From Saccharomonospora glauca K62 (lineage in GTDB: Bacteria > Actinomycetota > Actinomycetes > Mycobacteriales > Pseudonocardiaceae): a stretch of 64,000 nucleotides of DNA. Positions 10,551 through 64,000 of the stretch are shown piece by piece. The translations under genes and the position numbers were made by a program. Each line of letters opens with the position of its first letter. Positions within the stretch are counted from its first letter, which is position 1. Where the stretch lies: contig NZ_CM001484.1 of assembly GCF_000243395.2 (NCBI RefSeq), positions 1,537,568 through 1,601,567 on the forward strand. The letters are read 5' to 3'. A model generated the notes under the pieces. The model was not told the origin of the DNA. It saw nothing but the letters and a program-made list of their open reading frames with translations, and searched no databases.

Positions 10551-11291
10551 TCACCCGGAGATCCGTTGCGCCAGCGTGTCGAGCACCTGCCTCATGGCCT
10601 TCGTCGGCTGCCGGAAAACCTTCTCGACCAGGTATGTGTGCTCGTCGTCGAGGACCATTTCCGGCCGGTCGTCCTGATTCGCCCGCGCCCGGAAGACTTT
10701 GGCGGCGTTGCGTCGTCCCGTCGTGTTGGCGACCGCGATCAGGAAGGTGTAGGCGCTTGCCTGCGGACCTTTGCCGACCGACTCGGCGTTCGCCACGGCG
10801 TGTGCCCAGTAGTAGAGGGCCTCCGCGCTGCGACCGCGTCTCAGCATGGCGGTGCCGGCGAGATCGAGCAGCGCGTACTTGCGCGGGCAGCTCCGCAGCC
10901 CCTGCCCTATCAGTTCCAGCTCCCGCTTCGTGCCCCGATACACGGGCACCAACCAGCTGTACAGGGCGTCCAAGTCGGTGTAGCGGGGATCGGCGAGGAG
11001 CTCGGTGACCACCTCCGCCATCTCCGGGGAGGTCGAGCCGTCGAACTTCGCGACTTCGATGATCCGGTTCAGGGCGTATCCGTCGTTGAGGACGCGGGTC
11101 TCGGGTTCCTCCGGAAAGGTCGGGGTCAGGCACGCGGCGACGTACTCGGGGTCGTCCGCACGCAGGTCGGGGCGGCGCCAGAGTTCCAGCGGCCATCGCG
11201 GTGTTCCGGGTGGTGTGCTCCGCGTGTCCGGGGCCGAATTCGGTGCCCTTCGCGGTGTGTTCGCGCGGGAGCGCTTGAAGAAGCCGAACAC
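10551..11291 (-). CDS. Hypothetical protein with helical-repeat (TPR-like) middle
   Basis: Not a named family to me. The 246-residue product starts FGFFKRSR, has a basic, proline-rich N-terminal 40 residues, then an alpha-helical body. The body contains PRKYALLDLAGTAMLRRGR and AEALYYWAHAVANAES, which look like tetratricopeptide-type helices. GTG 11291 is preferred because GGGGAGGA lies seven bases upstream; an in-frame ATG at 11336 would add 15 residues with no ribosome site. No signal peptide or membrane segment. It lies upstream of the PP2C phosphatase on the same strand, 74 bases apart, and could be co-transcribed with it. Confidence 0.65.
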   Translation of the reverse strand: MFGFFKRSRANTPRRAPNSAPDTRSTPPGTPRWPLELWRRPDLRADDPEYVAACLTPTFPEEPETRVLNDGYALNRIIEVAKFDGSTSPEMAEVVTELLADPRYTDLDALYSWLVPVYRGTKRELELIGQGLRSCPRKYALLDLAGTAMLRRGRSAEALYYWAHAVANAESVGKGPQASAYTFLIAVANTTGRRNAAKVFRARANQDDRPEMVLDDEHTYLVEKVFRQPTKAMRQVLDTLAQRISG

Positions 11292-11476
11292 GCTGTCCTC
11301 CCCAGTGATCCGGCGGCGCGGCCCGTGGTTCCCCACTCTCGGCGAGGGGCGGTCACCGCATACTGCCCCGCGTCGCCTCGAGGTTCAAGGCGAATGGCAG
11401 CAACAGGACGAGCCGGTGGGGCGGAGCTGCGCGGCGGGTTTTCGTGGCCTTGCGTCCGTACCCTGGAAGAATGCGG

Positions 11477-12376
11477 ATGAGACCGACCCTGAGTTGGACA
11501 CCGTCCGGCGTGACAGCTCCCCGCACCACGGAGCTGACCGAGATCGTGCGAGTGGTCGGCGAAGGCGGCGTCGTCGTGCTGAGCGGAGCGGGACTGTCGA
11601 CCGAATCCGGCATCCCCGACTACCGCGGCGTCGACGGGACCCTTCGCCGGCACCTGCCGATGACCCACCAGGAGTTCGTCGGCAGCGAGGAGAACAGGCG
11701 CCGGTACTGGGCTCGCAGCCATCTCGGCTGGGCCGCCTTTTCCCGAGCCCGTCCCAACGCCGGCCACGAGGCGGTGGCGGCACTGCAACACGGCGGCTAC
11801 CTCACCGGAGTGATCACGCAGAACGTCGACGGACTGCATCAGGCGGCGGGCGCCGAGGACGTGATCGAACTGCACGGCAACCTCGGCCGGGTGGTGTGCC
11901 TGGACTGCGGCCGGGTCAGCTCCCGCTGGGTGCTCGAACAGCGGCTGACGGAGGCGAACCCCGGCTTTCGCGCCGAGGTGACCCGCATCAACCCCGACGG
12001 CGACGTGGAGGTGCCCGAACACGTCGTGCGTGATTTCCGAGTGGTGTCGTGTTCGGCGTGCGGAACCGGGGTGTTGAAGCCGGACGTGGTGTTCTTCGGT
12101 GACAGCGTGCCGCGGTCGCGGGTCGAGGAGTGCAGGCGGCTGATCGATGCCGCGAACGCCGTGCTCGTGCTCGGCTCCTCCCTGGCCGTCATGTCCGGGC
12201 TGCGGTTCGTCCGGCAAGCCGCCGGGGCGGGCAAACCCGTGTTGATCATCAACAAGGGGGAGACCCGCGGCGATGCTCACGCTCTGGTCCGGGTCGACCG
12301 CGCGCTGGGGTCGGCGCTGACGGAGCTGACCGAACGCCTCGGCTGCCGGTGGCCTGCCGCCGAGGACACCGCGTGA
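11477..12376 (+). CDS. Sir2-family NAD-dependent protein deacylase
   Basis: A 299-residue sirtuin. NAD-binding GAGLSTESGIPDYRG (about residues 40-54), TQNVDGLH, the catalytic His in ELHGNLG, a zinc ribbon with CLDC and CSAC pairs, and LGSSLAVMSG are all present. It removes acyl groups from lysines using NAD+. A GGAAG purine run seven bases before ATG 11477 favours that start; ATG 11471 is two codons earlier and equally in frame. The protein is longer than class-III bacterial CobB types (about 240) because of an insert between the zinc pairs (about 45 residues apart). It is divergent from the helical-repeat gene. Confidence 0.9.
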   Translation: MRPTLSWTPSGVTAPRTTELTEIVRVVGEGGVVVLSGAGLSTESGIPDYRGVDGTLRRHLPMTHQEFVGSEENRRRYWARSHLGWAAFSRARPNAGHEAVAALQHGGYLTGVITQNVDGLHQAAGAEDVIELHGNLGRVVCLDCGRVSSRWVLEQRLTEANPGFRAEVTRINPDGDVEVPEHVVRDFRVVSCSACGTGVLKPDVVFFGDSVPRSRVEECRRLIDAANAVLVLGSSLAVMSGLRFVRQAAGAGKPVLIINKGETRGDAHALVRVDRALGSALTELTERLGCRWPAAEDTA

Positions 12377-13494: not shown

Positions 13495-14141
13495 TTACGC
13501 GGTGGCCCTCTGATCACGGGAGTTTTGACCGAACTCCGCGATTCGCTGTGCGATCTTCTCCATGACCTGGTGAGGCCTCTGGCTCGTGGTGTCGATGGTC
13601 AGGACGGCAGGTGTTCCGAGCCGAGACAGATAGGATGCCGCGGTCCGGTACATCTTGGCTTCCGCTTCACTAGCGCTGATTCCGCTTTGAAACCTGTCAT
13701 GTGCGCCTCGGGTGGCGATGCGGGAAGCGGCCACGGCTGGGTCCGCGATGAGTAGCACAGCTAGATCGGGGCGCCTGGCTCGGCTGTTCAGAGCATCGAC
13801 GAACCCAAGAGGTACACCGTCCAACTGTTGCAATGCGTAGGAAGAGGCGAGGTACCGGTCGCATACGACGACTGCTCCTTCTCGGAGGCGAGGTTTGATT
13901 TCTGTCTCCAAGTGGTGATACCGGTCGGCCGCGATCAGGCACGCAAGCGTTTCTTTCCGGTATAGATCGACGTGCTGTCGAGCCAACGTTCCCAGCGCAT
14001 TCTTGTCGGCTCCGCTGTGGTATGGACGTGGTAGCCCAGGTTGCGAAGATAGGGACCAAGAAGGCGGACAGTGGTGGTTTTGCCCGCACCTGCCATGCCG
14101 TCGAGGGTGACGAAAAGACTGGGGCGGTTACCGGAGGTCAT
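13495..14141 (-). pseudogene. dTMP kinase-like gene with single-base frameshift
   Basis: The N-terminal part, from ATG 14141, carries the P-loop DGMAGAGKTTTV and TTAEPTR. The rest (ARQHVDLYRKETLACLIAADRYHH split, CDRYLASSYALQQLDG with the DR motif, and the lid region near RFQSGISASE) is in another frame down to 13495. The two join if one base is restored at about 14000-14006, in the short A-run of the coding strand after the EPTR codons. Total length 647 is one base short of 216 codons. The product would be a dTMP-kinase-fold nucleotide kinase of about 215 residues. A real pseudogene and a sequencing indel are both possible. The base composition is lower in GC than around it. Confidence 0.75.
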
Positions 14142-14344
14142 GTCGAGACCTTCCGTTCGTATTGTTCACGGCTGAGGGAAACGAGATTGCGGCGTACGTA
14201 GTTAATGGATGCTTCGGACAGCTGAATGTTGACTGAGAAGTTGAATTCGTCGCGCTCCCTCATCGCTTCTTCCTCTCCGCTACTGGTGAGATCGACAGCC
14301 GTGTAGTTGAGCAGTTGCTCGGCGGTGTAGCGACCGGTCCGCAT
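14138..14344 (-). CDS. Small hypothetical protein upstream of the dTMP-kinase-like gene
   Basis: Unrecognised short reading frame whose stop overlaps the ATG of the kinase-like gene (TGA/ATG), suggesting translational coupling. Two starts are possible: ATG 14344 (68 residues) and ATG 14263 (41 residues), the latter with AGGAAG five bases upstream. The product is polar, with FNFSVNIQLSEASINYVRRN and a basic end (SREQYERKV). It resembles the short companion proteins next to phage- or island-type kinases only in size and position. Function unknown. Confidence 0.45.
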   Translation of the reverse strand: MRTGRYTAEQLLNYTAVDLTSSGEEEAMRERDEFNFSVNIQLSEASINYVRRNLVSLSREQYERKVST

Positions 14345-50579: not shown

Positions 50580-51815
50580 TCAGCAGATGGTGCGGAGGTC
50601 GATGGCAGCGGCCATCGCGCCGAACCCGGCGTCGTTCGGGTGCAGGTGGTCGCCGACGTCGTAGGCGGGCAGGAAACGCGTCGGGTGCTCGGGGTCGCGC
50701 ACGGCGGCGTCGAAGTCCACGACGGCGTCGAACTCACCCGACGTCCTGATCCACTCGTTGACCGCCTGCCGGTCGGCCTCCCCGGCCTCGGTGTAGTAGT
50801 CGGCGCCCTCGAACGGGGTCAGCGTCGCCCCGATCACCTTGATGCCCGCGTCGTGGGCCCTGGCGATGAACTGCCGGTAGATGCCGATGAGCTGCTCCGG
50901 CTCCACCGCACCCTGGCTGGAACCGATGTCGTTGATGCCCTCCAACAGCACCACCGAGCGCACGCCGGGTCGACTCAGGACGTCACGGTCGAACCGGGAC
51001 AGTGCCGAGTCGCCCCACGACCCGGCGTCCGTCAGCAGCCGGTTGCCGCTGATCCCGCTGTTGAGCACGCCGCACCGGAGCGGGTCGGGACGCTCCAGCA
51101 GTCGGTCGGCGACCTGGTCGGGATAACGCAGATTCGCATCTACAGTGGACACATCGCCGTCGGTGATGGAGTCGCCGAAGAACACCACGGAGCCCTTCGC
51201 GCGCGTGGTGACGTCGACGCCGGTGAGGAAGTAGCGTGAGGCGTCGAGCTTCGAAAACGCCCGCCCCGGGTCGGTGGTGGCATCCCCCGGCGCGGTGAAC
51301 GACGTCGCGTATCCCTGGGAGTGGAACGTCGCCGGTCCGGTGGGGCCGGGCAGGTACATGCTGACGACCAGATCGGAGTCGTCCCGCACGGTGAGGTCCA
51401 CGGGATCGGAGATCCAGTCCGCGCCCGCCGGAATGGTCACCGACGTCTCGCCCCCGAAGGTCACGGGAGTGAGGGCGTCGGCGTCGACGTCCGGGGTTCC
51501 CGCGGCGTCGTCCGATCTCGGAGCCACGGTGACCGAGCCGACGGTGAGCGGGGTTTCGCCGTAGGCGTTGCTGAGGCGGACCCGCACGGAGTCGCCGCCC
51601 ACGGAAAGGTGCGCGACCTGGCGCAGGGTGGTGTCGGTGAATCCCTCGGCGGAGGGGCCACTCCCGGCGGGTTCCGTCATGGCAGCGTGCCAGCTTCCGA
51701 CCCAGTCGGCGTGGGGGACGGCGGGCTCGGCCCGGACGGGGAGCGGTGCGATCAGCGCCAGTGAGGTGAAAGCGCTTGCCAACCCAACCGCGATGCGTGA
51801 TCGCGTTCGTGACAT
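50580..51815 (-). CDS. Secreted SGNH/GDSL hydrolase
   Basis: A 411-residue exported esterase-like enzyme. A signal peptide (SRTRSRIAVGLASAFTSLAL, ending PVRAEPAVP) is followed by a beta-rich segment, then the SGNH core: GDSITDG (Ser), NSGISGNRLL (Gly block), LLEGINDIGSS (Asn) and DHLHPNDAGFGAMA (Asp and His). This arrangement is known for actinobacterial carbohydrate esterases and lipases. ATG 51815 has AAAGGA about eight bases upstream; 51824 is an earlier in-frame ATG with no spacing for a ribosome site. A terminator-like hairpin follows the stop. Substrate unknown; it may remove acyl groups from plant polymers. Confidence 0.87.
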   Translation of the reverse strand: MSRTRSRIAVGLASAFTSLALIAPLPVRAEPAVPHADWVGSWHAAMTEPAGSGPSAEGFTDTTLRQVAHLSVGGDSVRVRLSNAYGETPLTVGSVTVAPRSDDAAGTPDVDADALTPVTFGGETSVTIPAGADWISDPVDLTVRDDSDLVVSMYLPGPTGPATFHSQGYATSFTAPGDATTDPGRAFSKLDASRYFLTGVDVTTRAKGSVVFFGDSITDGDVSTVDANLRYPDQVADRLLERPDPLRCGVLNSGISGNRLLTDAGSWGDSALSRFDRDVLSRPGVRSVVLLEGINDIGSSQGAVEPEQLIGIYRQFIARAHDAGIKVIGATLTPFEGADYYTEAGEADRQAVNEWIRTSGEFDAVVDFDAAVRDPEHPTRFLPAYDVGDHLHPNDAGFGAMAAAIDLRTIC

Positions 51816-51973
51816 GGAAGACATCCTTTCTGTCCGACCGCTTCGCACTGGTATGCCGGGTCTTCCATGCCAACAGGCTGGTGATCACTGTCACAAGTGG
51901 CCGACGATCAACGGCCGTTCGACGGGTCGAGCGGTGCCTTTCGCGCGACGAACGGCTCGATTCGAGCGCGCGG

Positions 51974-57008: not shown

Positions 57009-57458
57009 ATGGATCGGATTTCGCGAGTCCGTCGCCACGCGGTGGTGGCCTTGATCGCCGCCGGTGCGGCACTGACTCCCGTCGCGTACGCCTCCGCGGC
57101 CGATGAGTCCACAACGGACGGTATGCGGGCAGCGTCCACCGAGTGGTCGACGGAGTATGTGGGAGCCCGGGCATCCGGCATCCGCTGGGTCGAAGGGGCG
57201 TTTCCCGAACGCTACCTCCACGTCGAGGGTGAGCTGACCGGGCCCGCCGACGGCTGCGCGTCCGTGTGGGAGCAGTGGACCCACGACTTCGTCGTCTTCC
57301 CGAAGAAGAAGATCGCCACGGCCTGCGACGGGGAGAGTGTCCCGGTCCGGACGGGTAACTCCGTCAACTTTCCCACGATAAGCGGTCAGCTGTGGCTCTG
57401 TGAGGGCACGACGAGCGCCGACAACTGTGGCCAGCCGGTCCGTCTCACCGGTTCGTGA
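57009..57458 (+). CDS. Secreted hypothetical protein
   Basis: A 149-residue exported protein: basic start (MDRISRVRRH), hydrophobic signal core (AVVALIAAGAALTPVAYA), cleavage near ASA, then a mature strand-rich domain with three or four cysteines (DGCASVWEQW, TACDGES, LWLCEGTTSADNCG). No family recognised. ATG 57009 or GTG 57003 are both possible, with GAAAGG upstream. It overlaps the start of the M16 gene, which hints at co-expression with the peptide-processing genes downstream. Confidence 0.6.
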   Translation: MDRISRVRRHAVVALIAAGAALTPVAYASAADESTTDGMRAASTEWSTEYVGARASGIRWVEGAFPERYLHVEGELTGPADGCASVWEQWTHDFVVFPKKKIATACDGESVPVRTGNSVNFPTISGQLWLCEGTTSADNCGQPVRLTGS

Positions 57459-58743
57459 CCGACTGCCGAACGGGCTGCGGGTCGTGGTGGACCCGCGGCC
57501 CGAGGTGCCCGTCGTCGGCGTCGCCGTGGTGTACGGCTCCGGAAGCCGGGCCGAGCGCCCCGGAGAAGCGGGGCTGGCCCACCTCGTCGAACACCTGATG
57601 TTCCGGGGCTCGGCCCACGTCGCGCCGGGGGAACACGCCCGGCTCGTGGAACGCGGCGGCGGGGTGTTCAACGCGGTCACCAGGGCCGACGACACGGTCT
57701 ATCACCAGGTCGTGCCCGTCGGCGCGCTCGAACAGGTGTTGTTCTGCGAGGCGGACCGAATGCGCGGGCTGCGACTGACTCCGCAGTCGCTGCACCGGGA
57801 GGTCGAGGTCGTCGATCGCGAGATCCGCGACACGGTTCGTGACGTGCCCTACGGCGGTTTCCCGAGGAACGCGCTCAAGGCGGTGTTGTTCGACCGATTC
57901 GCCAACGCCCACGACACCTACGGCGACGTGGAGGTGCTCCGCGCGCTCACGGTGGCCGACGTCGAACGATTCCTCCACGACCACTACACCCCGCGCAACG
58001 CCGCCGTGGCGGTGTCGGGACCGGTCACCGTGGACCAGGTGAGGGAACTGGTGTCCGACCACTTCGGAGACATCCCGGCCGGGGCGGCCGTGCCGCGTCC
58101 CGACCTGACCGAACCGGTACCGGACCGGCCGCGACACGACACCCGGTACGACCCGCGCGCCCCCTTTCCCGCCGTCGCGATGGGCTGGCGGGTACCCGAT
58201 CCCCTCGGCGACCCCGACGCCTTCCTGCCGTACGTGGTGTTGGCGGAGCTGCTCGCCGGGGACGGCCGGGCCCCGCTGCCCCGACGCCTGGTGCGTACCG
58301 AGGGCGTCGCGGTGACCGTCGACGCCGCCGTGAACCTCATGGGCGATCCGTTCGGCGTGCGCGACCCCACCGGTTTCCATATCACCGTCCACTTCCGACC
58401 CGGAGTCGCCGTCGAGCGAGTCGTGGCCGCCATCGAGGAGGAGTGCCGAGCGGTGGCGGACACCGGACCGACGCCGGGGGAGCGTGCTCGCGTGCTCGGC
58501 AAACTCACGGCAAGACTGTCCGGTCGCCTCGACGACGTCAGCGCGCGGGCCGTGTGGGCGGCGCGCTTCGCGCTCCAACGGAACACACCGGACCTCGGCG
58601 GGGAACTCCTCGGCGGACTTGCCGCGGTGGACGACGACGCCGTCCGGGCCGCCGCCCGCGCCGTGAGCTCGCGACCCCACGCCACGGTGGAAGTCGTCAC
58701 CGAACCACCGTCCCGCACCGTGACCACGGCGGGGGCGGCGTGA
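57427..58743 (+). CDS. M16 family zinc metallopeptidase (catalytic subunit)
   Basis: A 438-residue M16B peptidase. The inverted zinc motif HLVEH (about residues 52-56) is intact, with the third ligand expected in the ...EVEVVDREI... helix about 75 residues on. The usual RLPNGLRVVVDPRPEVP opening and the two-domain M16 pattern (PVTVDQVRELVSDHFG; FHITVHFRPGVA) are present. The start is uncertain (GTG 57427 or 57400) and overlaps the preceding gene. No signal peptide, so it is cytoplasmic. Its stop overlaps the GTG of a second M16-like protein lacking the zinc site. The pair should be one heterodimeric protease, as in other M16B pairs, and could trim a peptide leader. Confidence 0.85.
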   Translation: MASRSVSPVRDRLPNGLRVVVDPRPEVPVVGVAVVYGSGSRAERPGEAGLAHLVEHLMFRGSAHVAPGEHARLVERGGGVFNAVTRADDTVYHQVVPVGALEQVLFCEADRMRGLRLTPQSLHREVEVVDREIRDTVRDVPYGGFPRNALKAVLFDRFANAHDTYGDVEVLRALTVADVERFLHDHYTPRNAAVAVSGPVTVDQVRELVSDHFGDIPAGAAVPRPDLTEPVPDRPRHDTRYDPRAPFPAVAMGWRVPDPLGDPDAFLPYVVLAELLAGDGRAPLPRRLVRTEGVAVTVDAAVNLMGDPFGVRDPTGFHITVHFRPGVAVERVVAAIEEECRAVADTGPTPGERARVLGKLTARLSGRLDDVSARAVWAARFALQRNTPDLGGELLGGLAAVDDDAVRAAARAVSSRPHATVEVVTEPPSRTVTTAGAA

Positions 58744-60044
58744 CCCGAACGATTCCACCCACCCGGCCCCCGGAGACGATCACCGTGCCCGCGCACGGTC
58801 GACGACGAGCGGCGACGGGCCTTCGGGTGTTCGCCGCTTCCCGACCGGCGCCGTTGACCGAAGTGCGGTTGTACGTACCACTGCCCGGCGCGGGCCACGC
58901 GACGACCGCCGCCGTCCTGGCCGAGATGCTGTTCGCGGGCCGAAGCCGGCTGCGCGACCGGTTGGACGCCATCGGAGGACACCTGTTCGCCGTCGCGGGC
59001 GCCGACAGCCTCGTCGTCAGCGGCAACGCGCTCGCCGCCCACACCCGCGAGCTGTTCACGTTGCTCGCGGGCGCGTTGCGGGAAAAGGTCCGCTCCCGGC
59101 CCGAGCTGCACCTGGCTCGCGCGCGGATCGCCGACGGCTTCCGCCTGGCGCGCAGCCGTCCCGAACTCGTCGTGCACCAGGCGCTGAGCACCATCAGGTA
59201 CGCGGGCCACCCTTACGGGCAACCCCCGCCCGAACCGACGGTGGTGGACGCGGTGACCGAGCACGACGTGATCGAGTTGTGGGAGTCGCTGCGCCCCGCC
59301 GACGCCACGCTGTGCGTGGTCGCCTCCGCCCCGGTCGAGCAGACCCTGGACCTCGCCGCCGAGACGTTCGCGGAATGGCGCGGGTCGGCGCGGCCCGCAC
59401 CCGAGGAGGTCCCCGTTCCGCCACCACGCCCCGGCCCGGTGACGCTCGTGCACCGGGACTCGGCCGACCGGGTGTTGCTCCGGTGGGGGCTGGACGTCGT
59501 CGGGCCGGCCCATCCCGAGCTGCCCGCCGTCGAACTGACCCACACCGCGCTGGGCGGCTCGTACTCCTGCCGCCTGGTGGAGACGCTGCGGCAACGACAC
59601 GGCTGGGCCTACACGCCGTCGACCTCGCTGCTCCACCAGCGACGAGCGAGCCTGCTGGTGGTCTCGGCCGACGTGCCCACAGAGGCCGCCGAGGCAGTAC
59701 TCGACCTGGTGCGGGACGAGCTGCGCGGGCTCGCGGAGAATCCCGTCCGCGGCGAGGAACTCGAACGGGCCCGAGGGAAGACCCTGGGGGCGCACGCGTT
59801 GAGTCTGCGATCGGCCGCCCACGTGGCCGACGTGATGCTGACCCTCGCCGAACACGACCTCGAACTCGACGCCGTCGAACGGCGGGTACGAAAGCTGCAT
59901 GCCGTCCGTGAGTCCGATATGGAATCGGTGGCACGGCGACTGTTCACCCCGGAACGGGCGACCGAGGTCGTGCTCGGCGACGCCGTCCTGCTGTACGCGA
60001 AGCTGAGCGCGTTCTATCCGGTCGTGCACCGATCGATGGAGTAG
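58740..60044 (+). CDS. M16 family protein without zinc site (partner subunit)
   Basis: A 434-residue M16-fold protein. It keeps the family's structural stretches (TEVRLYVPLPGAGH, FAGRSRLRDRLDAIGGHLFAV (split), YGQPPP, LGGSYSCRLVETLRQRHGWAYT (split)). It has no HxxEH, so it is the non-catalytic half of the pair with the preceding gene (GTG start overlapping its stop). The RLVETLRQRHG-Y segment is the conserved substrate-clamp motif of M16B second subunits. A heterodimeric peptidase is thus expected. Confidence 0.85.
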   Translation: MTRTIPPTRPPETITVPAHGRRRAATGLRVFAASRPAPLTEVRLYVPLPGAGHATTAAVLAEMLFAGRSRLRDRLDAIGGHLFAVAGADSLVVSGNALAAHTRELFTLLAGALREKVRSRPELHLARARIADGFRLARSRPELVVHQALSTIRYAGHPYGQPPPEPTVVDAVTEHDVIELWESLRPADATLCVVASAPVEQTLDLAAETFAEWRGSARPAPEEVPVPPPRPGPVTLVHRDSADRVLLRWGLDVVGPAHPELPAVELTHTALGGSYSCRLVETLRQRHGWAYTPSTSLLHQRRASLLVVSADVPTEAAEAVLDLVRDELRGLAENPVRGEELERARGKTLGAHALSLRSAAHVADVMLTLAEHDLELDAVERRVRKLHAVRESDMESVARRLFTPERATEVVLGDAVLLYAKLSAFYPVVHRSME

Positions 60045-60134
60045 CGGAGACCGCGGATCAGTCGGCTGGTGGAGGACACCGTTCGCGCACCGTTCCTAGC
60101 ATCGACACGTCGTGCGAGGCGGCGTGGAGGCACA

Positions 60135-61640
60135 GTGAACGAGTGGGCCGAAAAGACCGTGCCGGTGGCCGCGCCCGCCGGACGGGTGTGGTCCCTGCTG
60201 GCGACGTCGCAGTGCTGGCCGTGGCTGTTCGGCACGGGAATCTCCGTGGACTTCGCGGGCCGCGAGGGCGGCCGAACGCGATACCGCCTGCGGAAGGACG
60301 AGACCGAGAGCGAGATCGAGGTCGTCCCCGCTCCGAACGACCGGACGGTCGAGGTGCGCCATGCTGATCGCGGTGTCCTGACCTGCCGTGTCGATGCCGT
60401 CGGGCACGAAGCCGTCAGTAAGTGGACGGTGAGTCCCGAAGCCGGGGAACCCCTCGCGGCCGTGTGGCGCACGGTCGAGTCCTGCGCTCCCGCGATCGAG
60501 AAGACCAGTCGAGCCATCGACACCGCGCTCGCCCCCGACGACCCGCTCGACCGCGCGAAGGCACTCGTTCCGCTCGCCCGCGACCGCGCCGACGACTCCC
60601 GGACCGCCCGCACGCTCGACCCCGCGGTGGTCACCGCGCTGCGCGAGTGCGGGATCTTCCGGATCGGACTGCCGCGTTCGCTCGGCGGCGCGGACCTGCC
60701 CGCCCGCACCGTCGTGGCCGTCGTCGAGGAGCTGAGCCGGGCCGACTCCGCCACCGGGTGGTGTGGCTTCATCGGCAACCAGAACGCCTACGCGGCGTGG
60801 CTGCCGCCCGACACGCTCGCGCGCATGGTGGGGCCGGACGGCTCCTTCGTCCTGGCGGGATCGACGGCGGTGCTGGGCACGGCCGAACCGACCGGCGACG
60901 GCGGCTACCGCGTCAACGGGCGGTGGCGGTTCAACAGCGGATGCCTGCACGCCGACTGGATCATGGCCGGGGTGACGGTGCCCGCCGAGGACGGGACACG
61001 GGTGCCCCGGCTGGTGTTCGTCCCGTGGCGACGAGCCACCGTGCTCGACACCTGGCACGTCGCCGGACTGGCGGGCACGGGTAGCCACGACGTCGTGCTC
61101 GCCGACGTGGAGGTGCCCGAGGACTTCGTCGCGCCCCTGTTCAGCGGCCCGTCCCGTGCCCCGGACCCTTTGCACCGGCTCAGCCCCTACAACATCCAGG
61201 GCGTGCTCATGGTCGGCCTGCCGCTCGGCCTGGCACGTCGCGCCCTCGACGAACTCGACGCGTTGCTGTCCTCGGCCGCGGAGGCGTGCCCGGACGACCT
61301 CGTCGTGGAGGCGGCCCGGTTGGAGACCCGCCTGGAGGCCGCTCGCGCGCTCGCGCTGAGCACAGTGGACGCGTACTGGGACGAACTGCGCACCCGGCCC
61401 CAGCTCACGCCGCGCTCGGCCGCGCGGTTGGCGCTCGTGCTCCGACACGCCGTGGACACGGCCAAGCACGTCGTCGAGAGCGTCTCGGCGATCGCGGAGC
61501 ACGGCGGCGACGCCGGTGCGGCCCGGACCCTGCGCGTGCTGCTGCGCGACGTCTACGGCGCCGGCGCGCACTTCGCCTGTAGTGACGACGTGTACCTGCG
61601 CAACGCGACACGGTTCGCCGGACGTGCCGGGGACCCGTGA
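60135..61640 (+). CDS. SRPBCC-acyl-CoA dehydrogenase-like fusion flavoprotein
   Basis: A 501-residue two-domain protein. Residues about 1-125 look like an SRPBCC fold (VPVAAPAGRVWSLLATSQCWPW, split). The rest is an acyl-CoA dehydrogenase/flavin monooxygenase fold: GIFRIGLPRSLGGADLPA, VEELSRADSATGWCGFIGNQN (split), GGYRVNGRWRFNSGCLHADWIMAG (split), AGTGSHDVVLADVEVP, then a C-terminal helical bundle with EHGGDAGAARTLRVLLRD. The fold is close to HsaA/nitrososynthase-type flavoproteins, which use reduced flavin on non-CoA substrates. GTG 60135 has GGAGG four bases upstream. A fusion of these folds is uncommon. It could oxidise a modified peptide. Confidence 0.75.
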   Translation: MNEWAEKTVPVAAPAGRVWSLLATSQCWPWLFGTGISVDFAGREGGRTRYRLRKDETESEIEVVPAPNDRTVEVRHADRGVLTCRVDAVGHEAVSKWTVSPEAGEPLAAVWRTVESCAPAIEKTSRAIDTALAPDDPLDRAKALVPLARDRADDSRTARTLDPAVVTALRECGIFRIGLPRSLGGADLPARTVVAVVEELSRADSATGWCGFIGNQNAYAAWLPPDTLARMVGPDGSFVLAGSTAVLGTAEPTGDGGYRVNGRWRFNSGCLHADWIMAGVTVPAEDGTRVPRLVFVPWRRATVLDTWHVAGLAGTGSHDVVLADVEVPEDFVAPLFSGPSRAPDPLHRLSPYNIQGVLMVGLPLGLARRALDELDALLSSAAEACPDDLVVEAARLETRLEAARALALSTVDAYWDELRTRPQLTPRSAARLALVLRHAVDTAKHVVESVSAIAEHGGDAGAARTLRVLLRDVYGAGAHFACSDDVYLRNATRFAGRAGDP

Positions 61641-61657
61641 CCGGGCGGGAGGCGACT

Positions 61658-62758
61658 GTGACCACAGCGATTTCCACGACGGACGTGTCCGCGCGTCCCG
61701 AGGAACGACCCGATCCACTGGAGGCGGCCCGCGAAGCGGTGGCGGCTGTACACGGCGGGACGCGGCCGGAGGAGGCACTCCGGGACACGGGACTGCTCGA
61801 CCTGAGTGCCCCGTGGCGGCCACCGGTCTCACCCGAGACCCTGCTGAGCGTCGGTGAGGAACTCGGTCACGGCGACGGCGCGCTGGGCAGGGTGTTCGTC
61901 GCCGCGCAGGCCGCCGCCGTGCTGCACTGGGCGGCCCCCTCGCCGGAGGGGAAGCTCGGTGAGGGCTCCCACGTCACGGGAGCCGACGAGGACTCCGGGG
62001 TGCTCACCGACGACGGGTCCGGCGCGGTCCTCACCGGCCGGTGGCGGGAAGTCGTCGGCGCGACCACCGCGGACTGGCTCGTGCTGCCGTGCCGCTCGGG
62101 GCCTCGACGGGTCTTCGCCCTGGTGCCGACGACGGCGGTACGCCGAGGGCACGGCGTCGCGGGCCTGCTGGACGACCTCGCCGCGCCGGAGGTGGTCTGT
62201 GACGGCGTCACCGTCGCCCCGGAACGGATAGTCGACGCGAGTGGTCCGCCGTCGAGGGGATCGCGAATCCTGCCGTTCCCCCTGCACCTCAGACACATCG
62301 CCAGCGGGGTGGCACTCGGTATCGCCCGGCGCGCCGTCGGGGAGTTCGTCCGCACGGCACGACACCGCTCCCGAGCGGGGGCGGTGCAACGAATGATCGA
62401 GCAACCGGTGCTGCAACGCGAACTCACCCATGCCGTGCAGAGCTTCCGTGCCGCGAGGGAGCTGTTGGACGCCGAGACACGGCGGCTGACCTCCGGGTCC
62501 CCGCAGGCCGGTGCGTTGACACGGGGTGGCCGGGTCCGACTGGCGTCGGCCCAGCTGCACGCCCAGCGGTGCGCCCTCGCCGCCGTGCGCCTCGTGTTCA
62601 GCAAGGCGGGCGGCAGCGCGCTCTACAGTGGACATCCGTTGGAACGAGCCTGGCGCGAGTCGGAGACCCTGTCGACGCATCCGCTGTTCGGACCCGAGGC
62701 CGAACGGGAACTGGCGCGTGCGCAATTCGGTGGATACCCGTCCGGAGCCATGCTGTGA
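61658..62758 (+). CDS. Acyl-CoA dehydrogenase-like flavoprotein (short form)
   Basis: A 366-residue acyl-CoA-dehydrogenase-like protein with a weakly conserved N-terminus (VGEELGHGDGALGRVFVAAQ), middle strand domain (LTGRWREVVGATTADWLVLP, split) and the C-terminal helical half (LRHIASGVALGIARRAVGEFV; split). It is shorter and more divergent than true acyl-CoA dehydrogenases. GTG 61658 has GGGAGG five bases upstream and is preferred over the GTG at 61637, which overlaps the preceding stop. Two such flavoproteins side by side suggest a heteromer or consecutive oxidation steps. Confidence 0.7.
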   Translation: MTTAISTTDVSARPEERPDPLEAAREAVAAVHGGTRPEEALRDTGLLDLSAPWRPPVSPETLLSVGEELGHGDGALGRVFVAAQAAAVLHWAAPSPEGKLGEGSHVTGADEDSGVLTDDGSGAVLTGRWREVVGATTADWLVLPCRSGPRRVFALVPTTAVRRGHGVAGLLDDLAAPEVVCDGVTVAPERIVDASGPPSRGSRILPFPLHLRHIASGVALGIARRAVGEFVRTARHRSRAGAVQRMIEQPVLQRELTHAVQSFRAARELLDAETRRLTSGSPQAGALTRGGRVRLASAQLHAQRCALAAVRLVFSKAGGSALYSGHPLERAWRESETLSTHPLFGPEAERELARAQFGGYPSGAML

Positions 62759-62898
62759 ACGGAGTATCGCGAACCGAATTCGCTGGCAGATTCGCCGAGA
62801 ACCGCCTCGCCGAAATCGTTGATCTGATGGACGTGACTACGGATGCGGACTTCTACCGTGAGGGGCGCAAGCTCATGTCGAGTCATGAGGAGAAGCGA
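62759..62898. promoter_or_regulatory. Leader region before the candidate precursor peptide
   Basis: 140 bases between the flavoprotein and the preferred precursor start. The reading frame is open from GTG 62755, so a 131-residue form is possible. The strong ribosome site GAGGAG (62887-62892) just before ATG 62899 argues that translation begins there and that this stretch is a leader with a possible promoter. Confidence 0.4.
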
Positions 62899-63150
62899 AT
62901 GAGCATTGTGGAGAAGTTCGCCAACTCGCATGTGGACGAGACGCTCCGCCCGCTCCAGGTGGGTTCGGTCGCCGGTCCGGTGCTGGCCACCCCGGCCTAC
63001 GCCGGCTACGCGGCGGGTGCGTTCACGCTCGGTCTGATCACGGACCTGATCGAGAACCACCACGCGACCGAGGTCACGCCCACCGGCCCGGTGCCCGAGT
63101 CGGGCTCGGCCGACGAGCTGCTCGGGATGCGGGTCGAGAGCATCAGGTGA
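62899..63150 (+). CDS. Candidate RiPP (linaridin-like) precursor peptide
   Basis: An 83-residue peptide from ATG 62899. Polar N-terminal leader (MSIVEKFANSHVDETLRPLQ), then a hydrophobic, Gly/Ala/Thr-rich stretch VGSVAGPVLATPAYAGYAAG-AFTLGLITDLIEN, and a polar tail of about 30 residues. PVLATP (residues 27-32) fits the PxxxTP motif of linaridin precursors, where the mature peptide begins at the Ala before TP (as in cypemycin). Gene size, the upstream ribosome site, the hairpin after the stop, and the M16 peptidase pair and membrane protein around it all fit a modified-peptide locus. No lanthionine-type Cys; no recognised dehydratase in the window. A longer 131-residue form from 62755 cannot be excluded. 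Confidence 0.55.
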   Translation: MSIVEKFANSHVDETLRPLQVGSVAGPVLATPAYAGYAAGAFTLGLITDLIENHHATEVTPTGPVPESGSADELLGMRVESIR

Positions 63151-63156
63151 GTCACC

Positions 63157-63191
63157 GGGTGTGGTGCCGTGCTCGTTCGGGCACCACACCC
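63157..63191 (+). terminator. Attenuator-like hairpin after the candidate precursor gene
   Basis: Perfect 12-bp arms GGGTGTGGTGCC / GGCACCACACCC around an 11-base loop, starting seven bases after the precursor stop and ending 44 before the next gene. Hairpins in this place usually raise precursor transcript over downstream enzymes. Confidence 0.68.
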
Positions 63192-63234
63192 ACTTTCTCC
63201 GAACTTCGAGTACCAGGCACAAGGGAAGGCGTCC

Positions 63235-64000
63235 GTGGCCCTCATCGACTCTCTCGAGAAGCGATTCGGCTCCTCGATCGACCGTTCCTCACAGGACCGT
63301 GCCTTCGACCAGGTCGAGCGGCTGACCGCGCTGGGCGCGGCGGTGTCCTCGCTGGAGTACCTCGCCTCGTCCCGCGACTTCGACCGCGGTGAACTGCTGA
63401 GCTGGGACACCGCTCGTACCCGTTACCGGTGGATGACGGGCCGTTCGGCGAAGGCGTTGGGCGCGGTGTTCGACAAGCCCGGCATCCAAGCGTTGTTCGG
63501 GCTCCGGGTGCTCGCGGCGGCGACGCTGCTCAACCCTCGTGCCTCCCACGCGAGCAAGACCGCAGCGGCCACCTACCTCGCCACGACGAACTTCGCCGTC
63601 CACGCGCGCAGTCCCTACGGCTCCGACGGCTCGGAGACCGTGCTCACCATCTCGCTCACCAGCATCGCGCTCGGCCGCTGGTTCCGCTCCGACCCCCGTG
63701 CCCGCCACGCCTGCCTGTGGTTCATCGCCGCGCAGTCGTGTCTGTCGTACGGCATCGCCGGGCTCGCCAAACTGGTCTCGCCCGTGTGGCGGGACGGAAC
63801 CGCCGTGCGCGACATCTTCCGCACCCGGATGTTCGGCCACCGGAAGGTGTTCTCGTTCCTGCGTAACCGTCCCAAGCTGGCGCGAGCGGTGGGGATGGGA
63901 ACGATCGTGGGGGAGATGGCCTTCCCCTTGGTCCTCGTAGCCCCCGCTCCCGTGGCTCGTGCGCTGCTGGCCACGGGAGCGGGATTCCACGCCAGCAACG
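63235..64000 (+). CDS. HTTM-domain-type membrane protein (partial, runs off the window)
   Basis: The open frame from GTG 63235 (AAGGGAAGG 6-14 bases upstream) continues to the window end, 255 codons seen. It has a soluble charged N-terminus of about 60 residues, then a series of hydrophobic helices with AAQSCLSYGIAGLAKLVSPVWRDGTAVRDI (split) and FPLVLVAPAPVARALLATGAGFHAS (split). These match HTTM-type proteins (gamma-carboxylase-like membrane family that also holds SdpB of the sporulation-delaying peptide system). Lying 84 bases after the candidate precursor, it may mature or export the peptide. The C-terminus is missing here. Confidence 0.7.
   Translation, partial: MALIDSLEKRFGSSIDRSSQDRAFDQVERLTALGAAVSSLEYLASSRDFDRGELLSWDTARTRYRWMTGRSAKALGAVFDKPGIQALFGLRVLAAATLLNPRASHASKTAAATYLATTNFAVHARSPYGSDGSETVLTISLTSIALGRWFRSDPRARHACLWFIAAQSCLSYGIAGLAKLVSPVWRDGTAVRDIFRTRMFGHRKVFSFLRNRPKLARAVGMGTIVGEMAFPLVLVAPAPVARALLATGAGFHASN

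Follow-up and report, generated by a model that had tools for sequence, protein, structure and literature searches.

The locus and its genes

At the right-hand end of a 64,000-nucleotide stretch of the Saccharomonospora glauca K62 chromosome (NZ_CM001484.1, positions 1,537,568 to 1,601,567; hereafter the window) begins a gene cluster of about 22 kb, which by its sequence runs from the catalytic subunit of an M16 peptidase pair (M16a) to a gene for a LuxR regulator (Table 1). The locus is almost certainly a biosynthetic cluster for a linaridin, a ribosomally synthesised and post-translationally modified peptide (RiPP). On balance, we favour the reading that the cluster makes two partner peptides, that is, a two-component and probably glycosylated linaridin.

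A linaridin locus combines a precursor bearing a PxxxTP motif with LinL, an HTTM protein and an alpha/beta hydrolase (passages of PMC9927463). Both S. glauca precursors carry the motif (PVLATP in precursor 1, PVLGTP in precursor 2). There are two LinL-type (DUF5819) genes, and both halves of LinH, the HTTM protein (LinG) and the alpha/beta hydrolase, likewise occur twice. That the HTTM protein of the window is half of a LinH follows from 10 of 61 named relatives, in which HTTM and hydrolase are fused in one open reading frame (ORF). These 61 loci come from a two-peptide-pattern scan with an HTTM gene, which is not exhaustive. Of these, 60 match the LinL profile and 54 the hydrolase profile. 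The lone LinL-negative locus, in Saccharomonospora halophila, has neither hydrolase nor LinL and is disrupted or badly assembled. Among the LinL-positive loci are those of Streptomyces monomycini, which we take to be the mononaridin producer, and Streptomyces sp. CT34. The latter is the legonaridin strain (PMC9927463).

A second line of evidence comes from the NCBIfam linaridin precursor model NF033402. One of 396 genomes in a sample of the phylum has a precursor above its cut-off (108.8 bits against 35), and the locus around this precursor carries homologues of the HTTM protein (36%), hydrolase (29%), LinL (31%), methyltransferase (31%) and exporter (52%). Our LinL profile picks up the counterpart beside it with E=8e-27. 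Finally, an interval of S. piscinae contig 3 (990976-1014377), listed as 'Linaridin' by antiSMASH in PMC7380521, covers a related locus with two enzyme sets.

A sequence-only reading of the window had proposed either a linaridin whose remaining genes lie beyond 64 kb or a new peptide class. The former was correct. Extension to the right shows the rest of the cluster just beyond 64000 (exporter, hydrolases, LinL pair, methyltransferase, glycosyltransferases), with a second precursor about 6 kb downstream of the first. A new RiPP class was rejected, since the core genes are linaridin genes, and the LinH homologue that had been missed in the window is the HTTM protein itself. Its assignment to HTTM, also made in that reading, falls below the Pfam cut-off (20.6 bits against 27.7) and is backed by a fold search. 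The small peptide with its leader, the adjacent M16 pair and the hairpin were likewise recognised correctly. Two other known classes were rejected: type A linaridins, because no LinD decarboxylase was found among the scanned proteins and neither core contains Cys, and class V lanthipeptides, because the same proteins gave no phosphotransferase or HopA1-type match and the cores lack Cys.

The gap that separates precursor 1 from HTTM1 was folded in 8 genomes of the sugar-gene group, and each has a strong hairpin there, of unlike sequence (z -0.6 to -4.4); the gap ends are partly approximated and z comes from our own shuffling script. A search for terminator-like sites found none. Hence, we infer that it is an attenuator or a stabiliser of the mRNA 3′ end that favours the precursor over the enzymes. 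A scan of the locus DNA (L004 in Table 1) at Rfam gathering thresholds gave no match, and a plasmid search with precursor 1 found nothing.

Table 1. Features of the cluster. Coordinates are window positions (1-64000) unless L004 or L005 is given; window position = L004 position + 56432, or L005 position + 75433.
Feature	Position	Strand	Basis or remark
Small protein, 149 residues, secreted-looking, no family	57009-57458	+	No Pfam match; relatives beside M16a
M16 peptidase, catalytic subunit (M16a, HLVEH)	57400-58743	+	Pfam Peptidase_M16 and M16_C
M16 peptidase, second subunit, without HxxEH	58740-60044	+	Pfam M16_C only
Flavoprotein ACAD1: weak SRPBCC-type N-terminus and flavin monooxygenase of acyl-CoA dehydrogenase (ACAD) fold	60135-61640	+	Family scan, solved relatives
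Flavoprotein ACAD2, same superfamily as ACAD1	61637-62758	+	ACAD fold, solved relatives
Linaridin precursor 1, 83 residues: leader, PVLATP, core AYAGY..., conserved tail	62899-63150	+	Start codon ATG 62899, closely preceded by AGGAG; stop 63150
PxxxTP motif PVLATP of precursor 1, residues 27-32	62977-62994	+	Invariant in 9/9 aligned precursor-1 rows
Hairpin between precursor 1 and HTTM1, 12 pairs	63157-63191	+
HTTM1, membrane half of LinH (LinG), cut by window end	63235-64000	+	Gene to 64104; Lys179 at 63769-63771
HTTM1, complete	L004:6803-7672
ABC exporter	L004:7673-9496
Alpha/beta hydrolase 1	L004:9500-10465
LinL 1, DUF5819 protein	L004:10455-11060		29.2 bits, above cut-off
Trp_halogenase/QhpG-like FAD enzyme	L004:11057-12232
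Hydrophobic peptide, 60 residues, candidate immunity	L004:12537-12719		Present in 5/7 syntenic loci
Precursor 2	L004:12877-13137
HTTM2	L004:13446-14336
Hydrolase 2	L004:14333-15310
LinL 2	L004:15313-15906		DUF5819, 20.4 bits, below cut-off
Methyltransferase	L004:15903-16631
Glycosyltransferase GT1	L004:16641-17912
P450-derived glycosyltransferase activator	L004:17909-18943		TIGR04515, 156 bits, below cut-off 343
EryCIII-like activator-dependent glycosyltransferase GT2	ends L005:1210		TIGR04516, 536 bits, above cut-off
Second ABC pair	L005:1228-2277, then gene to 3032		Second gene outside family scan
LuxR regulator	L005:3053-3742	-

At the left edge of the cluster, a relative of the small secreted-looking protein (40-44% identical) immediately precedes M16a in two of the other six full syntenic loci. 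Further to the left, at 50580-51848, is a GDSL-esterase-like ORF with an 81% homologue about 1 kb from M16a in the metagenome-assembled genome (MAG) DX1.bin91; a block of about 5.5 kb has thus been gained in S. glauca or lost in the MAG. Other linaridin-type loci were seen as well. S. piscinae has a third HTTM/LinL locus (L097, 60756-81568), in which the LinL frame holds one TGA, and PMC7380521 lists 60896-82094 likewise as Linaridin. In an Armatimonadetes MAG, a Chitinophagaceae genome and Mycetocola (two loci) HTTM adjoins LinL, with no hydrolase match; two of these lie outside Actinobacteria.

Two precursors and two enzyme sets

The two precursors are 38% identical and have in common LRPL in the leader, the motif PVLxTP and SxxELLxMR in the tail. 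A precursor profile is positive in 13 of 390 genomes of the family, and PxxxTP is found in 9 of 9 aligned rows of precursor 1 and in 8 of 8 of precursor 2. It is absent from the type-1 precursors of two related loci without sugar genes (S. piscinae and P. cavernicola) and from Actinopolyspora. Mean column identity, calculated as the sum of squared frequencies, is 0.70 in the leader, 1.00 in PVLxTP, 0.86 in the core, 0.74 in the middle and 0.65 in the tail of precursor 1 (9 rows); the corresponding values for precursor 2 (8 rows) are 0.65, 0.94, 0.66, 0.55 and 0.72. The core varies by sub-clade (AYAGY versus Thr-rich), while leader and tail stay recognisable. In MAG DX1.bin91 a third precursor-like gene lies beside precursor 2 (joined stretch 14069-14323), with a type-2 leader and tail and without PxxxTP.

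The gene set recurs in nearly identical order in seven genomes: S. glauca, MAG DX1.bin91, Amycolatopsis marina, A. palatopharyngis (without GT2 and activator), A. antarctica, Prauserella flavalba and P. rugosa. The association of gene types noticed in the window is therefore more than chance. S. piscinae and P. cavernicola also have both enzyme sets, with no M16, flavoprotein, methyltransferase or glycosyltransferase match within the stretch examined.

Within S. glauca the type-1 and type-2 proteins are 43% (HTTM), 40% (hydrolase) and 46% (LinL) identical. Trees of the HTTM proteins (22 rows), hydrolases (20) and LinL proteins (20) each split the two types with a support of 99-100. In the hydrolase tree, midpoint rooting puts the single sets of Actinopolyspora, whose HTTM is labelled type 1, on the side of type 2. 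A wider FastTree phylogeny of 72 HTTM rows places the two types on distant branches, type 1 beside Actinopolyspora and type 2 in a group of streptomycete loci in which LinH is mostly fused. Eleven of the 11 genomes in this tree that carry either type also carry the other. One of them belongs to a different order: Leifsonia sp. ALI-44-B (Micrococcales; Saccharomonospora is in Pseudonocardiales) has two sets on one contig with one HTTM per type, and it also has type-1-like and type-2-like precursors, a methyltransferase, GT1, activator, GT2 and one M16 gene. Two long-branch HTTM rows from outside Actinobacteria (L125, the Armatimonadetes MAG; L130, Chitinophagaceae) fall by type 1, next to Leifsonia, a placement that we suspect to be a long-branch artefact. 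In an order-wide search, 18 of 298 genomes were positive for LinL, and three of the 18 had two LinL genes close together.

From these sequence comparisons we conclude that the pairing of type 1 and type 2 is an old partnership. At the level of genes, S. glauca resembles a two-component system, with two precursors and two enzyme sets that are inherited together. It is quite likely that each enzyme set serves one precursor, and we lean, if only slightly, towards partner peptides that act together. An argument for two components from neighbour order alone was dropped, as precursor 2 of Leifsonia adjoins set 1.

One could also argue that the cluster makes two independent linaridins that have a common exporter and common tailoring enzymes and do not cooperate. 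The number of precursors does vary: the loci without sugar genes have two (S. piscinae) and four (P. cavernicola) type-1 copies, each with one type-2 copy, and MAG DX1.bin91 has its extra degenerate copy. Moreover, single-set loci are the usual case: leaving the Leifsonia pair aside, a lone HTTM was seen in the stretch examined for 50 of the 61 named loci. Independent products would not, however, lead us to expect that two types from distant HTTM branches are never found one without the other in the tree, and this across two orders. We therefore consider independence possible, yet clearly the less probable explanation.

Tailoring genes and a possible dehydration chemistry

The methyltransferase and GT1 are present in 7 of the 7 syntenic loci, GT2 and its activator in 6. 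Judging from these genes, the product is probably glycosylated. Three of the seven loci have a sugar aminotransferase downstream of GT2 (NCBIfam best matches ArnB-, PseC- and DesI-like, all below cut-off) and, in the same place, a further methyltransferase; together they hint at an amino-deoxysugar. The methyltransferase beside GT2 in A. antarctica matches daptide_MTase below cut-off and is presumably DesVI-like. Its single S. glauca match, 48% identical, is about 0.5 Mb from the window. Around that match (chromosome 2096000-2115999) we noticed by eye nonribosomal-peptide-synthetase-like ORFs and three glycosyltransferase-like ORFs, possibly another locus for a glycosylated product.

Where the sugar would be attached is suggested by the core. 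AYA[GA]Y follows PVLATP in 9 of 9 type-1 precursors of the sugar-gene group (including S. halophila, whose contig has no glycosyltransferase) but none of the 6 type-1 precursors from the two loci without sugar genes has it. Because the motif tracks the sugar genes, our best guess is glycosylation of the AYAGY tyrosines, as in cacaoidin; this is a correlation only, which phylogeny could explain.

ACAD1, ACAD2 and the FAD enzyme occur in 7 of 7 syntenic loci. Flavoprotein-based tailoring, as proposed in the sequence-only reading, is likely. The same reading had called ACAD1 and ACAD2 acyl-CoA-dehydrogenase-like. This holds for their fold, but no true acyl-CoA dehydrogenase is among the solved relatives found, which are monooxygenases that use flavin or proteins named as hydroxylases. 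Rv3094c, which we take to be a monooxygenase, is the closest solved protein to each (E=1.9e-40 for ACAD1, 1.7e-16 for ACAD2), and ACAD1 further matches the monooxygenases HsaA, XiaF and HpaH C2. The SRPBCC-type match at its N-terminus scores 17.2 bits (cut-off 27.4). Inside the P. flavalba cluster (L049) there are also genes for a DCC1-like thiol-disulfide oxidoreductase (10941-11315) and a GPP34-family protein (11333-12001); ORFs that look alike by eye lie near the clusters of A. antarctica and P. cavernicola (DCC) and of P. rugosa (GPP34).

The M16 pair is present in 5 of 7 syntenic loci. HxxEH is kept in M16a of S. glauca and 11 of 11 relatives, and absent from the second subunit in S. glauca and 8 of 8 relatives. 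Heterodimeric M16 peptidases of this kind, one subunit with HxxEH and one without, have been proposed or shown for LxmP1/LxmP2 and PttP1/PttP2 (passages of PMC8068269 and PMC10885120). We regard the chances that the pair is the leader peptidase as evenly balanced. Alternatively, the conserved tail could serve as a follower, guiding the enzymes until the M16 pair removes it, instead of becoming part of the product. Counted by locus (tails called by regular expression, Leifsonia counted twice), M16 genes accompany tail-bearing precursors in 9 of 18 loci and tail-less ones in 0 of 34, and they occur in 2 of 9 loci in which no precursor was found. Half of the tail-bearing loci thus have no M16 match in the stretch examined, and phylogeny alone could explain the association. 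Hence, we hold a follower function to be rather unlikely.

How linaridins are dehydrated is unclear (PMC9927463), and the HTTM half offers a lead. A structure model of HTTM1 from a relative 87% identical to that of S. glauca (L074; predicted local distance difference test, pLDDT, 92; predicted template-modelling score, pTM, 0.87) was compared with the PDB by Foldseek. Vitamin-K-dependent gamma-carboxylase (GGCX) took ranks 1-14 with probability 1.00, template-modelling scores of 0.56-0.64 and a best E of 3.9e-4; the probability at rank 15 was 0.11. Direct PDB profile searches with LinG returned no match at E 10. A profile bridge does connect the two: LinG matches six other HTTM proteins (96.5% probability, E=9.6e-10), and these six match GGCX (E=1.7e-9). 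Lys179 is present in 36 of 36 LinG rows, which represent 36 of the 61 loci by one HTTM protein each, and aligns via the bridge with GGCX Lys218, the base that initiates the vitamin-K superbase reaction (PMC9146348).

LinG could thus be a quinone-superbase enzyme like GGCX that removes the alpha-hydrogen of Thr or Ser (or epimerises the residue), with LinL and the hydrolase positioning or releasing the peptide. A superbase taking the alpha-hydrogen off Thr would yield dehydrobutyrine. This idea adds to the two-component reading and competes with LinL or the hydrolase half as the dehydratase. For LinL itself, a model (pLDDT 83) has no fold match in the PDB (best E 0.33), and a profile search of PDB sequences at E 1 was negative. 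Yet the lysine is also present in 6 of 6 other HTTM proteins, taken irrespective of LinL neighbours, and may hence mark the superfamily rather than this chemistry. Taken together, a superbase role for LinG is a tentative idea and on the whole unlikely. Still more improbable is its full form, a two-component glycosylated linaridin kept as a unit across two orders, each precursor dehydrated by its own membrane complex with a GGCX-cousin HTTM that uses reduced menaquinone and O2. If it were true, quinone chemistry would drive linaridin dehydration, in contrast to the RiPP dehydratases known to us.

Proposed pathway and known systems

The two-component linaridin that we favour could be made as follows. 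At the membrane, each HTTM-hydrolase-LinL set would dehydrate the Thr and Ser of a single precursor, with set 1 serving precursor 1 and set 2 serving precursor 2. The flavoproteins would hydroxylate the peptide, and the glycosyltransferases with the activator would attach a deoxysugar, perhaps on the tyrosines of precursor 1. The M16 pair would cut off the leader inside PxxxTP, the methyltransferase would dimethylate the new N-terminus and the ABC protein would export the product. The two products would work jointly as a two-component bacteriocin.

Several observations weigh against this proposal. Set specificity and cooperation rest on co-inheritance, and independent products with common tailoring and export would leave an identical picture; the locus counts rest on the scan of 61 loci. 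The leader of precursor 1 does align to NF033402, with 15.5 bits, but stays below the cut-off of 35, and precursor 2 has no match. We take the model to cover only a sub-group of linaridins, and because both precursors are below cut-off, the linaridin call rests on enzymes, motif and leader. Thr and Ser are sparse in the cores of loci with sugar genes, whose first 18 residues include 2-3 of them, so that few dehydrations are expected. The nucleophile Ser of hydrolase 1 is lost in P. cavernicola, S. piscinae (Ala in these two) and Leifsonia set 1 (degenerate), which makes serine-hydrolase chemistry of set 1 unlikely in these three genomes; it is kept in 9 hydrolase-2 rows and in Leifsonia L099. 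Gene arrangement is not uniform either: in P. flavalba and P. rugosa precursor 2 is on the opposite strand, the S. halophila locus is in fragments, with both HTTM genes and no hydrolase or LinL, and precursor 2 of Leifsonia has set 1 as its neighbour. No M16 match was found within about 10 kb upstream in P. flavalba and P. rugosa, nor in either two-set locus without sugar genes. No NDP-sugar genes were seen beside the S. glauca glycosyltransferases.

Finally, the sequence-only reading had named end-to-end conservation, tail included, as a sign that the peptide is no RiPP precursor, and this applies in part, as the tail is conserved. It is nevertheless very improbable that HTTM and LinL merely assemble the peptides, without chemical modification, as structural subunits or as proteins of the membrane or holin-like kind: the hydrophobic middle and conservation up to the C-terminus would fit, but the enzymes are those of CT34 and of the locus beside the NF033402-positive precursor, and the core varies between sub-clades while leader and tail stay. 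For these reasons the RiPP reading survives the conserved tail.

What is new is the pairing of enzyme sets and the glycosylation genes within a known linaridin kind. In the openly readable literature covered (titles, beginnings of abstracts and passages, with subscription papers outside this scope) we found no two-component or glycosylated linaridin, which does not show priority. Linaridins are few and are described there as single peptides. If true, a pair with dedicated sets would extend the two-component principle to linaridins. The cluster is also a built-in test of specificity, as one can ask which set modifies which precursor, and the GGCX match points to a mechanism of linaridin dehydration that is concrete and can be tested.

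HTTM1 is like GGCX in the fold of the membrane domain and in the lysine aligned with Lys218. It is only 13-16% identical to GGCX and less than half as long, and LinG is not filed as a carboxylase. In two-component lantibiotics of the lacticin 3147 and haloduracin type, the two precursors have separate modification enzymes and are inherited together with them. The S. glauca cluster resembles them in its paired precursors and sets; the enzymes are different, and cooperation is here a hypothesis. Cacaoidin, a class V lanthipeptide, combines Tyr O-glycosylation, N-terminal dimethylation and an M16 peptidase (PMC8068269). Unlike cacaoidin, S. glauca shows no HopA1-type or phosphotransferase match among 20 Pfam-scanned proteins and no Cys in its cores.

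The closest systems are the type B linaridins legonaridin, mononaridin and corynaridin. They are alike in LinL, HTTM protein, alpha/beta hydrolase and PxxxTP precursor, in having no decarboxylase among the scanned genes and in cores without Cys; exporter and methyltransferase homologues are present in the CT34 and S. monomycini loci, as in S. glauca. A gene for a leader protease is missing from the corynaridin locus, as from other linaridin clusters (passages of PMC9927463). Unlike type B linaridins, the S. glauca cluster has two precursors with two sets, a conserved tail, an M16 pair, flavoproteins and glycosylation genes.

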